A DNA stretch of 27,404 nucleotides from a virus: positions 1 through 27,404 of IMG/VR virus record IMGVR_UViG_3300031673_000384. One strand, 5' to 3'. The position numbers and the translations under genes are program-made. This document shows, piece by piece, positions 3,161-22,318 of this stretch (within the stretch, counting starts at the first letter, position 1; each line of letters starts with the position of its first letter). The notes beneath the pieces are model-generated. The model was not told where the DNA came from. It was given only the letters and a program-made list of their open reading frames with translations, and searched no databases.

Positions 3161-4207
3161 TTAGAGCATTACGCTTAAAAGCTTCTGTAATGACTGATGT
3201 TTATTGCATTTTCTGCATTTTACTTGGTGTTTCATGTAGACTTGTTCATGACCGCAGTCTCCGCAAGTCATGTACTTCATTCCCTTTTCCAGAGACTCAG
3301 TCTTCTTCTTTTTCTTCTTCTTTTTCTTTTTAGGTCGACCATCATCTAAGGATTCAGACTGAAGTACTGATCCACCTGTCTGAGAGGTTGGAGCACCTCC
3401 GCCACCATATCCAGCAGTAAGGGCCTTTTTAAGATTTTCAGGCAATCCTTTAACCAACTCGTGAATCTTCTGAATATTACCATGTATTTTCATCTCTAAA
3501 GCTTCTTTTATTAACTGTTCTGGGGTAAAGGCTTTGACTAATTCTGTTCCTAAACCTAGTTCTGCAGCAATCTCTCTAATCTTCTCCATATTCTGGTAGA
3601 TCTTCTCTGCTTGGGCATTTCTAGTAATAGCTCTGAAAGAAGGGATATCTGTTTGTGCCAAGTGCATGACAGACTTAATTAGGAGCATATCAGCCTCTGT
3701 GTCTGCTGACTTCTCCATTTGATATGGTTCTACTAGTGTGGCATTATTGGCTGGAGTAAAGGTAAGAGCTACAGAGTGTATCTTGGTTCTAGCAAGCAGT
3801 GTCTCATCTTTGAGACCACGTTGAACAACTCCACCTTCGACTGAGGCTTTTAATTTCAGGGGCGTATCGGATTTGTGTATATTTCTAAGGATAGCGGCTG
3901 CTGCCTTAGCATTGCCATGATCCTCATCATCATATAAGTATCCTCTGACATAGATATAGGGAGCTTTAACTTTGTCCCAAAAGTATTCATGCCTAGGATC
4001 AGTGAAATCATCTGGGCCATATATCTTCTTGGCACTAGTGACTCTACCTACAGAGTTGAAGAAACCTTTGCCGTGATTATCATTGAAACGACCTCGCCCA
4101 GCTTCTAGTTCCGAAATGTCGGCGCCCTCAACAGAGAGCATCTCTCCCTGAGTATCCCGCAGCTGACTACCGGCTATCATATCAATTTCTAAAGGTTTCT
4201 TCGCCAT
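3161..4207 (-). CDS. Prohead protease with capsid-like C-terminal segment and zinc ribbon
   Basis: 348 residues. Residues 1-165 look like a prohead maturation serine protease: a candidate catalytic His45 (NDNHGKGFF), Ser122 in LKASVEGG and the following HSVALTFTPANNATLVEP strand, the pattern expected for phage capsid proteases. It should cleave scaffold and capsid N-termini in the prohead. Residues 170-257 are helical. Residues 258-288 match capsid protein residues 25-55 without gaps. Then come ten consecutive Lys (293-302) and a CxxC-12-CxxC zinc ribbon (C315, C318, C331, C334) ending at 348. The tail beyond residue 165 may be a built-in targeting and self-cleavage region. The catalytic assignment is by motif only. 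The start codon is within a hairpin (4203-4224) and follows AGGAGG. Confidence 0.85.
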   Translation of the reverse strand: MAKKPLEIDMIAGSQLRDTQGEMLSVEGADISELEAGRGRFNDNHGKGFFNSVGRVTSAKKIYGPDDFTDPRHEYFWDKVKAPYIYVRGYLYDDEDHGNAKAAAAILRNIHKSDTPLKLKASVEGGVVQRGLKDETLLARTKIHSVALTFTPANNATLVEPYQMEKSADTEADMLLIKSVMHLAQTDIPSFRAITRNAQAEKIYQNMEKIREIAAELGLGTELVKAFTPEQLIKEALEMKIHGNIQKIHELVKGLPENLKKALTAGYGGGGAPTSQTGGSVLQSESLDDGRPKKKKKKKKKKTESLEKGMKYMTCGDCGHEQVYMKHQVKCRKCNKHQSLQKLLSVML

Positions 4208-14158: not shown

Positions 14159-15223
14159 TTAACCGTTGATAAGATCTTCAGCCATTTTAAAGATATCGTC
14201 TTCTGGTGCCACGATATTGACCGTTGCACTGTTGACCACATCTTCTACTCTAGTAGTAGCAGTAGTAGACACAACTGGGGCATCTTCGCCCTCATCATCT
14301 CCACCAATCTTTAGAGTTACAGGCTTCTTACCTTGAGGCACTACTGTAGTTGTTGGCTCTTCTGACACTGCTTCCTGGGTAACAGGTGCTACTGAATCTA
14401 GGAATGAAGGAATGATAAGATCTGGAATAGCTCCAAACTTATCATTACCATTCTTAGCTAGAAGTTTGATGTTAGCCACCAAAAGATCCTTGAGCTCATT
14501 ATATGTTTTAATGGTGTAGATCGAAGAAAGATCGTAAGCCATCTTAGCATAGTTATTGACGATGTTTTCACTCAATGGAGATCTATCATCTCGTCTCAAC
14601 TTACCAAGTTCAGGGTGATTGACCATTACACTGTTGAATTCAGTCGTATATTTAGTATCTTTCCCAAGACCTGCACGGTTAATATTGATCCAAACACCAG
14701 AGTTATCTTTCTCAGAAAGAAGCTCTGTAGGATCTTGGGAATAGTCTGCAATGTATTTAATCATACTAGCTTTTACACCATCATGAGCTGTTTTCTTGAT
14801 CTCTAAAAGACCTAAGACACCAGCTTTATCACTGACATTATAAGCGAAAGTATGGTTTAGTTTTAGACGCCATTGCTCAGATCTAGCTGGAGCTAAACGG
14901 GCCTTGATATCCTCATCACTTGCTCCACTGGCTTTCAACTCAGCTTCTAGATCTTCAAGCTTAGTTTTGAGTAGATCAGCATATTCCTTAACCGGACACT
15001 TGTCTTCACCAGCGCAATATGGACTAGCAAAAGGCTTGCGTTTTCCACTACTTGGGTCGATTAACCAGATTGTTGACCATTTTCTGTAGGCATAACCATT
15101 GTGGACTTCGGGGTCTCCGAAGGGAGGGAGGAAGCGGAAGGTATTTATTCCATCTGCTACTTTGTGACGTTTCCAGTCACGGCTTGCTTTTAACGATTCT
15201 TGATTGATTTTGATGTCAGCCAT
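14159..15223 (-). CDS. gp32-like single-stranded DNA-binding protein
   Basis: 354 residues. N-terminal residues about 10-60 (DWKRHKVADGINTFRFLPP ... YRKWSTIWL) start the OB-fold seen in T4 gp32-like SSBs; C70 and C76 (SPYCAGEDKCP) and a later LNHTFAYNV strand fit that family's metal-binding region. The C-terminal 75 residues are acidic and flexible, ending DDIFKMAEDLING, like the acidic tail with which SSBs bind partner proteins. It coats ssDNA in replication and recombination beside polymerase and RecA genes. A promoter with an extended -10 (15279-15287) and a dyad around the expected transcript start precede it, so it begins its own unit and may be regulated. SD GGAG is well placed. Confidence 0.85.
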   Translation of the reverse strand: MADIKINQESLKASRDWKRHKVADGINTFRFLPPFGDPEVHNGYAYRKWSTIWLIDPSSGKRKPFASPYCAGEDKCPVKEYADLLKTKLEDLEAELKASGASDEDIKARLAPARSEQWRLKLNHTFAYNVSDKAGVLGLLEIKKTAHDGVKASMIKYIADYSQDPTELLSEKDNSGVWININRAGLGKDTKYTTEFNSVMVNHPELGKLRRDDRSPLSENIVNNYAKMAYDLSSIYTIKTYNELKDLLVANIKLLAKNGNDKFGAIPDLIIPSFLDSVAPVTQEAVSEEPTTTVVPQGKKPVTLKIGGDDEGEDAPVVSTTATTRVEDVVNSATVNIVAPEDDIFKMAEDLING

Positions 15224-20188: not shown

Positions 20189-20680
20189 TTAGGTCTCCAA
20201 ATTCTCTTTTATAGTTTTCTCAAGATGATCTTCATACCAAAGTGGTTGTAGATTTGTATAATGGCTGGCTTTCTCAAACTCTTTAGTATTAGACAGATTA
20301 AAATCTGCCAATCTCCTAATGTGGTCAATGTGCCAACCAGTTGGTGAATGATTATTCCAATTCATACCTGGTTCAAATTTAGAAATCTTATTACATTCTA
20401 ATGAACAAGATTTAGAATTGTGACTCTTTGGCATAAAAGAACTACCACACATTACACATATCTTATCAGATAAAATACCTAACCCACTATTAATTCTATG
20501 TGTACGATTAGATTCAGCTTTTGCCTTCTTGGATCTTTTAGAAGAATGGAGTCTAGCTTTTGCTCTGTGATATTCTTCTTTAGAACTATCTTTGACTACA
20601 GATCTACATTTATTTGAACAATATAGAGCATTTGGGGCTTTAGATTCAAACCCCTTCTTACAAAGACTACACTGATGCAT
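20189..20680 (-). CDS. HNH endonuclease with zinc fingers, probable free-standing homing gene
   Basis: 163 residues from the ATG at 20678-20680 (a longer frame exists upstream but lacks an SD, and the protein fold starts at MHQCSLC). Two Cys-pair modules come first: CSLC...YCSNKC (4-26) and CVMC...SCSLEC. The C-terminal HNH domain reads GWHIDHI, then NLSNTKEF, TNLQPLWYEDHLEKT, the layout of HNH enzymes with the H-I-D-H-I and N-L-Q-P-L-W motifs. It would cut DNA at a specific site. It is clearly AT-richer than its neighbours (about one third G+C in the lines I counted versus 40%) and overlaps the previous gene by 14 bases, consistent with a mobile insertion between two small genes. Confidence 0.85.
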   Translation of the reverse strand: MHQCSLCKKGFESKAPNALYCSNKCRSVVKDSSKEEYHRAKARLHSSKRSKKAKAESNRTHRINSGLGILSDKICVMCGSSFMPKSHNSKSCSLECNKISKFEPGMNWNNHSPTGWHIDHIRRLADFNLSNTKEFEKASHYTNLQPLWYEDHLEKTIKENLET

Positions 20681-20963
20681 CTGGATTAACCGAACCGTCT
20701 TGGATTTCATCAATCTTTTCAAGCAGATGCTGAATTTTAGCTTCTTCATACTTCATTACAGAAGTGTAGGCACCTTTTAGGTCCTTAACAACTTGCATGG
20801 CTCCTGAGAGATCTTCATCATTTTCCATTTCATTCCTGAGCTCTCTAAGCTTCTGCTCAGACCTGACGATCAGAGCTCCTGCTTCGTCTTCTGCGATATC
20901 TGTGACATTATCTAGAAATGCCTGATTGAGAACCTTTTTTGCTTTACCGATGTCAACTGCCAT
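20667..20963 (-). CDS. Small helical unknown protein after ruvC (98 aa)
   Basis: Not recognised. Entirely helical and charged (SEQKLRELRNEMENDEDL; YEEAKIQHLLEKIDEIQD), likely a coiled-coil dimer. AAGGAG in the end of ruvC serves as its SD, three bases separate the genes, so it is co-translated with the resolvase. Its last 14 bases are shared with the HNH gene start. Confidence 0.7.
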   Translation of the reverse strand: MAVDIGKAKKVLNQAFLDNVTDIAEDEAGALIVRSEQKLRELRNEMENDEDLSGAMQVVKDLKGAYTSVMKYEEAKIQHLLEKIDEIQDGSVNPDASV

Positions 20964-20966
20964 GTC

Positions 20967-21602
20967 TTACTCCTTAGTGTATTTAAACATTACTTTTGGG
21001 GCTTTTTTAAACTCGAAATCATCTGGACATATTACGTCGCATGCGATATTCGATACGTTCAGGAATATTTTACAATAGAATATCCCTTGCGAGACGGCAT
21101 CCACAACGTCATAGCGGAACTTGATAGGCTTTCCAGTTTTTAAAGATAGGGAGTGATTGGGGAATCTGATATTGTATTTTTCCCACAGAGCTAGTTGCAT
21201 CATGAGTTTCTTTGCAGGATCTTTTCCCCATTTCTTCTTCTGTTCTTTAGTAGGGGTTGATCTTCCCGCCGTGAATTTCTTCCATAAGGATATATTCAGG
21301 ATTTCATATGGGAGATTTAATTCTCTTAGCTTGATATGGATGGCAGTTCTAAAGGCAGCATTCACATCACAGCCGTTGGCGAACTTGTTACTGAAGAAGT
21401 AGTCTTCTATGCACACGTCATCTATATTATGCTCGTGTACTAGTTTTTCTACATTATTCATCATCTCTATACAACGGTCGCCATTGTACTTGTGCTCACC
21501 AACTTCAATGAACCCGTATTTCACAATCGAAGCAGTGTCGTTCTTAATGGATAAAATGCAATATCCTGTAGATATTGCTGGATCCAATGCTAATATATTC
21601 AT
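20967..21602 (-). CDS. ruvC: RuvC-like Holliday junction resolvase
   Basis: 211 residues. The four acidic residues of the RNase H-fold resolvase are visible: Asp7 in ILALDPAISTG, Glu66 in VCIEDYFF, and Asp165/Asp168 in RYDVVDAVSQG. It would resolve branched DNA before packaging, as T4 endonuclease VII does by another fold, and completes the recombination set (SSB, RecA, Mre11/Rad50). The ATG at 21600-21602 is chosen over a GTG two codons upstream because AAGGAGG is five bases before it. That SD lies in a 7-base-pair hairpin at the end of a long structured leader, so translation is probably regulated. Insertions near residues 110-160 (basic, KKEQKKKWGKDPAKK-like) distinguish it from host RuvC, which is shorter. 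Confidence 0.88.
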   Translation of the reverse strand: MNILALDPAISTGYCILSIKNDTASIVKYGFIEVGEHKYNGDRCIEMMNNVEKLVHEHNIDDVCIEDYFFSNKFANGCDVNAAFRTAIHIKLRELNLPYEILNISLWKKFTAGRSTPTKEQKKKWGKDPAKKLMMQLALWEKYNIRFPNHSLSLKTGKPIKFRYDVVDAVSQGIFYCKIFLNVSNIACDVICPDDFEFKKAPKVMFKYTKE

Positions 21603-21603
21603 A

Positions 21604-21622
21604 CTCACCTCCTTAAGGTGAG
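21604..21622 (-). promoter_or_regulatory. SD-sequestering hairpin before ruvC
   Basis: Minus strand CTCACCT-TAAGG-AGGTGAG: a perfect 7-base-pair stem with a 5-base loop. The AAGGAGG ribosome binding site of ruvC spans the loop and the 3' arm. The 5' arm shares four bases (21619-21622) with the closing helix of the leader RNA, so both cannot form at once. Confidence 0.7.
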
Positions 21623-21770
21623 AGGCCTACCGGTTACCCCAACCCGGCTCCCTACTTCCGCGGACTCTTTTTCATCCAACCTATTGGAACTAGGCTAACT
21701 TGCCTGTGAGTTTAAACTGCGCATATAGCCCAGTCATCCAACCGCACACTCATCAATCCCTGACCTCTCA
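21619..21770 (-). ncRNA. Putative structured leader RNA / riboswitch-like element upstream of ruvC
   Basis: About 152 nt, roughly 52% G+C by hand count against about 40% around it, non-coding. The ends pair as a 9-base-pair closing helix (21762-21770 with 21619-21627, one G-U). Internal helices visible on the minus strand: ACUG-G-GC / GC-G-CAGU with a UAUAU loop; AGGC-AAGUUA-GCCU; UCCAA-UAGG-UUGGA; and a CCGG/CCGG hairpin near the 3' end; UGAGU/ACUCA could enclose the first. I do not recognise an established class (no match to cobalamin, lysine, SAM, glutamine or RNase P core motifs that I know). A 13-codon frame (21712-21753) is a weaker, leader-peptide alternative. The predicted transcript start coincides with its 5' end. 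Confidence 0.6.
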
Positions 21771-21776
21771 AAAGAG

Positions 21777-21805
21777 ATTATACCGGATCGACGTCATCTT
21801 GTAGA
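21777..21805 (-). promoter_or_regulatory. Promoter for the leader RNA and ruvC unit
   Basis: Minus strand TCTACA (21800-21805), 17 bases, TATAAT (21777-21782). The expected start, 6-7 bases beyond, is 21770-21771, exactly where the leader's closing helix begins. Confidence 0.6.
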
Positions 21806-21812
21806 GTATGTG

Positions 21813-22082
21813 CTAAAGTTTGAGACTCCATTGTCCATCTTTAGAAATATTTAGTTTATTCTTATTCTTAGATGCTACCTTGGTAGCAGAGGCTTTCATC
21901 TTGGGATCAGCTATCTGCTCAGTCACTTTATTAGCATCTTTCTTAGATGCCTGACCAGGAACAGGTGGCCTAGGTTTATCTACACCGATATCAACCTTCG
22001 GGGCTTTTGGTGCCTTAGGGGACATTCTCATGTTCTTTACAGAACTTGATAGTGCTTTTATCTTTTTTATTAGTTCTTCCAT
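21813..22082 (-). CDS. Small basic Pro/Lys-rich unknown protein (89 aa)
   Basis: Starts at the ATG 22080-22082 (TAATG overlap with the upstream gene; the longer frame has no SD and overlaps that gene deeply). A short N-terminal helix (EELIKKIKALSSSVKN) leads into a basic, Pro-rich, probably disordered stretch (KAPKAPK, RPPVPGQASKK) and ends in SKDGQWSLKL. The NGQW/DGQW-x-L motif also appears near the N-terminus of the upstream neighbour. Function unknown; composition suggests nucleic-acid contact or a flexible linker. It is the last gene before the ruvC promoter. Confidence 0.62.
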   Translation of the reverse strand: MEELIKKIKALSSSVKNMRMSPKAPKAPKVDIGVDKPRPPVPGQASKKDANKVTEQIADPKMKASATKVASKNKNKLNISKDGQWSLKL

Positions 22083-22318
22083 TATTTCAAGTTCTTTACA
22101 TGTTCTTGATGGGCTGGAGATAGTTTGTCCATCATGGTCCATTTCTTACCATCTTGGATTGCAGTCGTGGCTTGCTTACGATTCATTCTCGAGGCACCAC
22201 CGTCAAATACATGAACATAGCCACCATCTGGATGCTTGGTGATATGACCCTCTGAATCGCTACCTTTCTCAAGAAGCTCCCATTGTCCATTCTTATGGGT
22301 TTTAAATAGTTCTTCCAT
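22082..22318 (-). CDS. Small unknown protein (78 aa)
   Basis: Not recognised. A short beta-type start (THKNGQWELLEKGSDSEG), then HPDGGYVHVFDGGASRMNRKQA and a helical end (SPAHQEHVKNLK). Its beginning MEELFK and the NGQWEL motif echo the next gene (MEELIK, DGQWSL), so the pair may be related fragments. It overlaps the Rad50-like gene by TAATG and has GGAG upstream, so it is translated after it in the same operon. Confidence 0.68.
   Translation of the reverse strand: MEELFKTHKNGQWELLEKGSDSEGHITKHPDGGYVHVFDGGASRMNRKQATTAIQDGKKWTMMDKLSPAHQEHVKNLK

Follow-up and report, generated by a model that had tools for sequence, protein, structure and literature searches.

A candidate transcript-start-dependent translational switch in the leader of a phage ruvC gene

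In two reviews of bacteriophage T4 (PMC3014915, PMC2988022), genes e, soc, 49 and I-TevI are described as having the Shine-Dalgarno sequence (SD) or the start codon sequestered in longer early or middle transcripts, and late promoters immediately upstream as giving RNAs that lack the 5′ part and leave the ribosome binding site exposed. For gene e, they report a 100-fold effect. Here we describe the leader of a ruvC-like Holliday junction resolvase gene on the minus strand (20967–21602; ATG at 21602–21600) of a record of 27,404 bases from an uncultivated phage, which as a whole is referred to as the window. On the strength of modeled RNA structures, we consider it an even call that this leader is a transcript-start-dependent translational switch.

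The ruvC product matched the RuvC domain PF02075 with 31.4 bits (cut-off 22.2; Pfam RuvC 2.1e-7) and phrog_159 at 1.2e-17. One relative, L001, is 53% identical. No named relative of RuvC was found in the phage collection, and named relatives of DnaE and GroEL were only distant matches (<60% identity); a scan of viral_contigs with SbcC gave no relative. The ORF program listed the ruvC frame with an upstream GTG at 21608 as its start. Other minus-strand genes of the window encode GroEL, an SbcC-like protein, a PolIIIalpha-type DNA polymerase, an SSB-like protein, a UvsX-like recombinase, terminase, portal, head protease and major head protein. A scan for tRNA and tmRNA found none. An HNH/NinG-like ORF (20189–20749, minus strand; Pfam NinG under cut-off), which by sequence looks like a free-standing homing-type nuclease, overlaps the conserved 98-aa ruvC neighbor (20667–20963, minus strand). 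On the upstream side, an ORF of 109 aa (21813–22142, minus strand; partial match in L003) is a possible source of read-through RNA. Its stop at 21813 is separated from ruvC by a 210-base spacer, and the terminator scan found no terminator-like site between the two genes. Within the start of ruvC (21558–21578, minus strand), a terminator-like stem-loop of 9 bp is followed by a T-rich tail; the scan that picked it up returned 2 sites versus 2.4 expected by chance.

The SD, AAGGAGG (21608–21614; minus strand, as are all features below unless stated), is read directly in the sequence 5 nt before the ATG. It is part of a hairpin, CUCACCU/AGGUGAG (21604–21622), in which CTCACCT (21622–21616) pairs with AGGTGAG (21610–21604), U21615 and G21611 form an eighth pair, and the AGG of the SD is buried. 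A second helix, P1, has its 5′ strand UGAGAGGUC at 21762–21770, beginning with the predicted transcript start, and its 3′ strand GGCCUCUCA at 21619–21627, so that TGAGAGGTC (21770–21762) pairs with GGCCTCTCA (21627–21619) over 9 bp. An earlier, sequence-only reading had proposed that the CTCACCT arm facing the SD shares 21619–21622 with the 3′ strand of P1, and we found both helices as it described them, their overlap being limited to these bases. Its view of the two helices as fully mutually exclusive was rejected. The minimum free energy (MFE) structure contains both: P1 has 8 pairs, a remnant of 5 bp is left of the SD hairpin, and SD bases 21611–21608 are mostly still paired. For the RNA 21769–21590, keeping all 7 hairpin pairs costs just 1.4 kcal/mol more. 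Because the hairpin has an energy of −9.6 kcal/mol when full and −2.5 kcal/mol once trimmed to 21619–21607, and because the remnant persists, P1 weakens the SD mask in these models without removing it, making the SD easier to open, not free.

P1 closes a leader domain of 152 nt (21619–21770), which folds with −54.5 kcal/mol versus −42.5 ± 3.9 kcal/mol for shuffled sequences (z −3.07; 0 of 200 as stable). A longer leader of 223 nt gave z −2.6 (4 of 200 shuffles) and its plus strand z −2.5 (3 of 200), which means that a surplus of structure is not enough to tell which strand is the coding one. The domain contains two exact copies of the 10-nt repeat GGTTGGATGA, at 21734–21743 and, 62 nt away, at 21672–21681. 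The hexamer TTCCAA between the copies could pair with either.

The candidate promoter of ruvC is a GTATAAT box at 21777–21783. In the related loci, an ATG frame begins exactly 13 nt after the box GTATAA[TC] at 42 of 240 distinct sites, with 6 sites at 14 nt, 0–9 at every other distance, and 0 at 13 nt in a reverse-orientation control; the box-site surveys were made without L100–L121, which are pattern hits and not relatives, and the 240-site count also without L024 and L099. Among 41 clade boxes with full context, T occupies −2 in 36 and C or T precedes the ATG in 37; a conspicuous −35 element is not seen. The ruvC box of the window has C at −2 and is without the T-rich stretch. A sigma-70 scan also reads TCTACA-17-TATAAT at this box, but its total of 12 sites is close to the 10.0 expected by chance. 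The usual distance from a −10 element to the transcript start is about 7 nt. The 13-nt clade spacing places +1 of the window gene at 21770, and the usual −10 spacing points to the same base. Judged by its sequence, the clade box with its 13-nt spacing would look like a promoter for leaderless RNA, and the ruvC box is presumably a promoter, probably with late timing. At the head maturation protease gene (3161–4207), too, a GTATAAT box precedes the ATG, by 24 nt, and an SD-containing inverted repeat extends across the predicted +1 (region 4232–4182); the computed read-through masking is 10.6 versus 4.3 kcal/mol (1 of 60 shuffles). The box upstream of this gene only suggests late use.

The cost of opening the SD was computed for RNAs with varied 5′ ends, using nested-structure thermodynamics in which pseudoknots are forbidden. 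Between 21640 and 21980, most 5′ ends gave a cost of 5.3–9.0 kcal/mol, least at 21718–21736 and 21776, whereas 5′ ends at 21769–21775 gave 3.4–4.2 kcal/mol, with the minimum at 21770. The cost of opening the region from SD to AUG changed from about 8 to 3.9. The drop was robust to three 3′ ends, to 37 °C and 20 °C and to the removal of dangles, and it was kept with the Turner1999 and Langdon2018 parameters. The earlier proposal that formation of the domain frees the SD thus holds in direction, the opening cost going from ~7 to ~3.5 kcal/mol, but not in degree, as the 5-bp remnant stays; the companion proposal, that loss of the domain masks the SD, is borne out in computed energies, where RNAs unable to form P1 keep the full hairpin. 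In the SSB-like gene of the window (14159–15223), the box is present, yet opening does not depend on the 5′ end. In the leader of that gene, a frame of 7 codons has a GTATAAT box 13 nt ahead of its ATG (region 15286–15230) and is, by its sequence, a possible leaderless upstream peptide.

The alternative that survives best is a plain SD-masking hairpin behind an incidental leader, which would do nothing other than lower RuvC output, the overlap with P1 being a by-product of a GC-rich insert. It agrees with the persistence of much of the hairpin in both states and with the absence of the leader from relatives, and the Andronescu2007 parameters give almost no change, the drop being only about 0.4 kcal/mol and the cost about 6 kcal/mol at all ends. 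It does not account for the coincidence of the cost minimum with the independently predicted +1, or for the outcome of shuffling all sequence upstream of 21623, after which the gain was equalled in 1 of 200 cases and the cost at 21770 in 4 of 200. We regard this explanation as unlikely, while giving it real weight.

RNAs that begin farther upstream are predicted to contain a further helix, P0, whose 5′ arm (21785–21793) lies upstream of the box and is missing from promoter-started RNA, and whose 3′ arm (21751–21759) lies within the leader domain. For 5′ ends at 21800–22142, the pair probability of P0 was mostly 0.92–1.00 (outermost pair 0.39–0.94) and that of P1 was 0.00–0.02; at 5′ end 21770, all but the outermost pair of P1 reached 0.7–0.99. 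In the same longer RNAs, the computed probability of the SD hairpin was 0.6–1.0 (mostly >0.8) and the opening cost about 6–9 kcal/mol. RNAs begun just upstream of the box contain an anti-SD stretch (21771–21778), absent from the +1 RNA, which pairs with 21607–21614; the probability of pairing between 21778–21771 and the SD was 0.89–0.95 at 5′ end 21784. The predicted promoter-started RNA is without the 5′ arm of P0, but keeps the SD hairpin's own 5′ arm. Nested folding may overstate the exclusion between P0 and P1, as P1 could pair from the P0 loop as a pseudoknot, weakening the effect.

We propose that the ruvC leader would act as a switch in the following way. Read-through RNA from the upstream genes, which we presume to exist, would carry sequence 5′ of the ruvC promoter and form P0 across the start site. 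By occupying the 5′ part of the leader, P0 would exclude P1, leaving the full SD hairpin in place and little RuvC made (OFF). As P0 would be complete long before the 3′ strand of P1 is made, the order of transcription should favor the OFF state in read-through RNA. RNA initiated from the GTATAAT box would start at ~21770 with the 5′ strand of P1, allowing P1 to close the 152-nt domain, to strip the outer 3–4 pairs of the SD hairpin and to reduce the opening cost by about half, so that RuvC would be made when the promoter fires (ON), probably late. This scheme is built on three computational observations, namely the helices, the effect of the RNA 5′ end on SD opening, and the box that recurs across the clade at its 13-nt spacing; a change in translation would be expected to follow from them.

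The sequence-only reading had called the arrangement a translational switch and named no trigger. The notion of a switch is partly supported, and the evidence favors the transcript start, not a ligand, as the trigger, there being no Rfam match. A ligand- or protein-sensing switch, in which the domain would be an aptamer whose folding stabilizes P1 and exposes the SD, is an improbable alternative. The domain is unusually stable and large, with a closing helix that overlaps the SD hairpin, as would befit an aptamer. Against this, no Rfam family matched at gathering score (0 matches) or credibly at E up to 5, the domain had no relatives in the loci and collections searched, and in the models P1 is already highly probable without ligand in promoter-started RNA. 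The Rfam search gave only two chance-level snoRNA matches (E 2.5 and 4.2), and a known riboswitch or other ncRNA was rejected for lack of a credible match. Least probable of all is that the spacer holds an inserted DNA element of ~150 bp, with TGAGAGGTC...GGCCTCTCA as its terminal inverted repeats, or a domain processed into a separate small RNA: the terminal inverted repeats are there, no relative shares the 210-nt spacer, the genes of relatives otherwise sitting close, and GC is 0.53 in 21600–21699 versus roughly 0.34–0.40 in 21500–21599, 21800–21899 and most of ruvC, but no second copy was found in the window, in the related loci or, with the exact patterns used, in two collections, and no terminator follows the domain before ruvC.

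Related phage loci were gathered with RuvC, DnaE and the 98-aa neighbor as queries, and ruvC was present in 63 loci, or 22 distinct groups; the loci overlap and are related, so that counts among them are not independent. The homologue check covered these 22 groups, one of them cut off upstream, and L170, a Flavobacteriaceae MAG contig found later, in which the box stands at 13 nt and the ruvC start is spanned by an inverted repeat of 7 bp. The sequence-only reading had held beforehand that homologues lacking either pairing would count against it, and this holds in part. The leader domain occurs in 0 of the readable ruvC groups and not in L170, although in many of them another inverted repeat, far shorter, covers the start region. 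Searches with blastn and nhmmer against 98 and 168 loci gave nothing with E <0.05 for the 152-nt leader, L170 being blank as well, and exact patterns from the leader were found 0 times in viral_contigs (17 bases) and 0 times in genome_contigs (20 bases). The leader domain, being in no relative, offers no covariation. The spacers of ruvC in readable groups are short or the genes overlap, the longest reaching about 145 nt to the nearest listed ORF (L090 group). The GGTTGGATGA repeat pair was found in 22 stretches of viral_contigs, none of them leader-like; they are mostly common CRISPR-like repeat arrays and the remainder other repeats or coding-like. Viral contigs with such arrays (L100, L102–L107, L109, L110, L112, L115, L117, L118 and L121) share a repeat of ~36 nt beginning GTTGGATGAGGT.

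Folding of the start region was stronger in 18 relatives plus the window (mean z −0.99) than in 48 control gene starts (mean z 0.12; Mann-Whitney p 0.0019), with ruvC of the window itself at z −0.07. Read-through masking of ruvC was compared in 19 of the 22 groups, leaving out L006, which nearly duplicates L007, L023, whose upstream part is cut off, and L024, at 33% identity, with the box pattern widened post hoc to GTACAAC, which admits L022. Among the 10 boxed relatives, masking reached p ≤ 0.05 in 6 (0.020, 0.020, 0.033, 0.040, 0.046, 0.046, 0.073, 0.073, 0.225 and 0.649; Fisher 3.4e-5), and the 9 unboxed relatives showed no masking beyond shuffles (Fisher 0.38). Significant masking was absent in boxed L056 (p 0.65), L026 (0.23) and L170 (0.23). 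On the L001 contig, ruvC was unmasked when a narrow opened region was used (60 of 60 shuffles) and masked with a wider footprint (p 0.040, as L063), a contrast showing that the measure of opening matters. Boxed genes generally, at the 70 of 72 sites that were long enough, showed a modest masking trend in three distance classes (KS p 0.019, 0.014 and 0.088). At the position of the relatives' ruvC, L003 carries an HNH-type ORF (1726–2145), on its sequence a possible replacement of the resolvase; directly ahead of it lie GTATAAC and a short inverted repeat that contains an SD. In L057, L059, L062, L070, L073–L076, L079–L081 and L086, the dnaE match extends over about 4.6–5.4 kb versus about 4.0 kb, an excess suggestive of inteins, introns or insertions of another kind in this gene.

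As in T4, promoter-started RNA of the relatives would simply be without one arm of the short inverted repeat. The 152-nt insertion of the window would have made a relay of this, in which P0, if transcribed, removes P1, and free P1 trims the SD hairpin. We put forward only tentatively the wider proposal that a clade of uncultivated phages unrelated to T4 uses transcript origin to time RuvC and, probably, further late genes: a late box exactly 13 nt before the starts would give leaderless or short-leader RNA that escapes a start-masking read-through fold, and the window phage would have three helices in relay (P0, P1 and the SD hairpin), with the 5′ end of the mRNA itself opening the SD. Were this so, two unrelated phage groups would have independently put a Holliday junction resolvase under transcript-origin translational control, suggesting that resolvase made early does harm, or is a waste, while the phage replicates. 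A promoter motif of fixed spacing would make gene timing in uncultivated phages predictable from sequence, and the leader would offer a simple RNA design whose 5′ end senses its own promoter.

Translational riboswitches use alternative helices that overlap an SD. The ruvC leader of the window resembles them in this respect and differs in that it matches no known aptamer and that its predicted trigger is the 5′ end of the RNA. No account of such an arrangement at a phage ruvC, or of a leaderless late promoter of this form, was found in a literature search that left most subscription journals outside its reach. The relatives invite comparison with leaderless mRNAs (PMC4633059 and PMC3160421), since their box lies 13 nt before the start codon and the transcript is expected to start at or next to the codon; unlike leaderless mRNAs, the ruvC RNA of the window is predicted to begin with about 168 nt of leader and contains an SD. 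The likeness to T4-type control is drawn by analogy, not as demonstrated membership. Unlike the T4 cases, the window, where the case is a computed one, has its masking hairpin wholly downstream of +1, trimmed by a long-range helix from the RNA's 5′ end; it has an inserted 152-nt domain, and its resolvase is of the RuvC type, not endonuclease VII. As described for T4 e, soc, 49 and I-TevI, a promoter-like box lies just upstream and the longer RNA is predicted to mask the SD or start; the RNA from the near promoter would be without an upstream arm, here that of P0, while keeping the SD hairpin's own 5′ arm. The product of T4 gene 49, like that of ruvC, is a Holliday junction resolvase.
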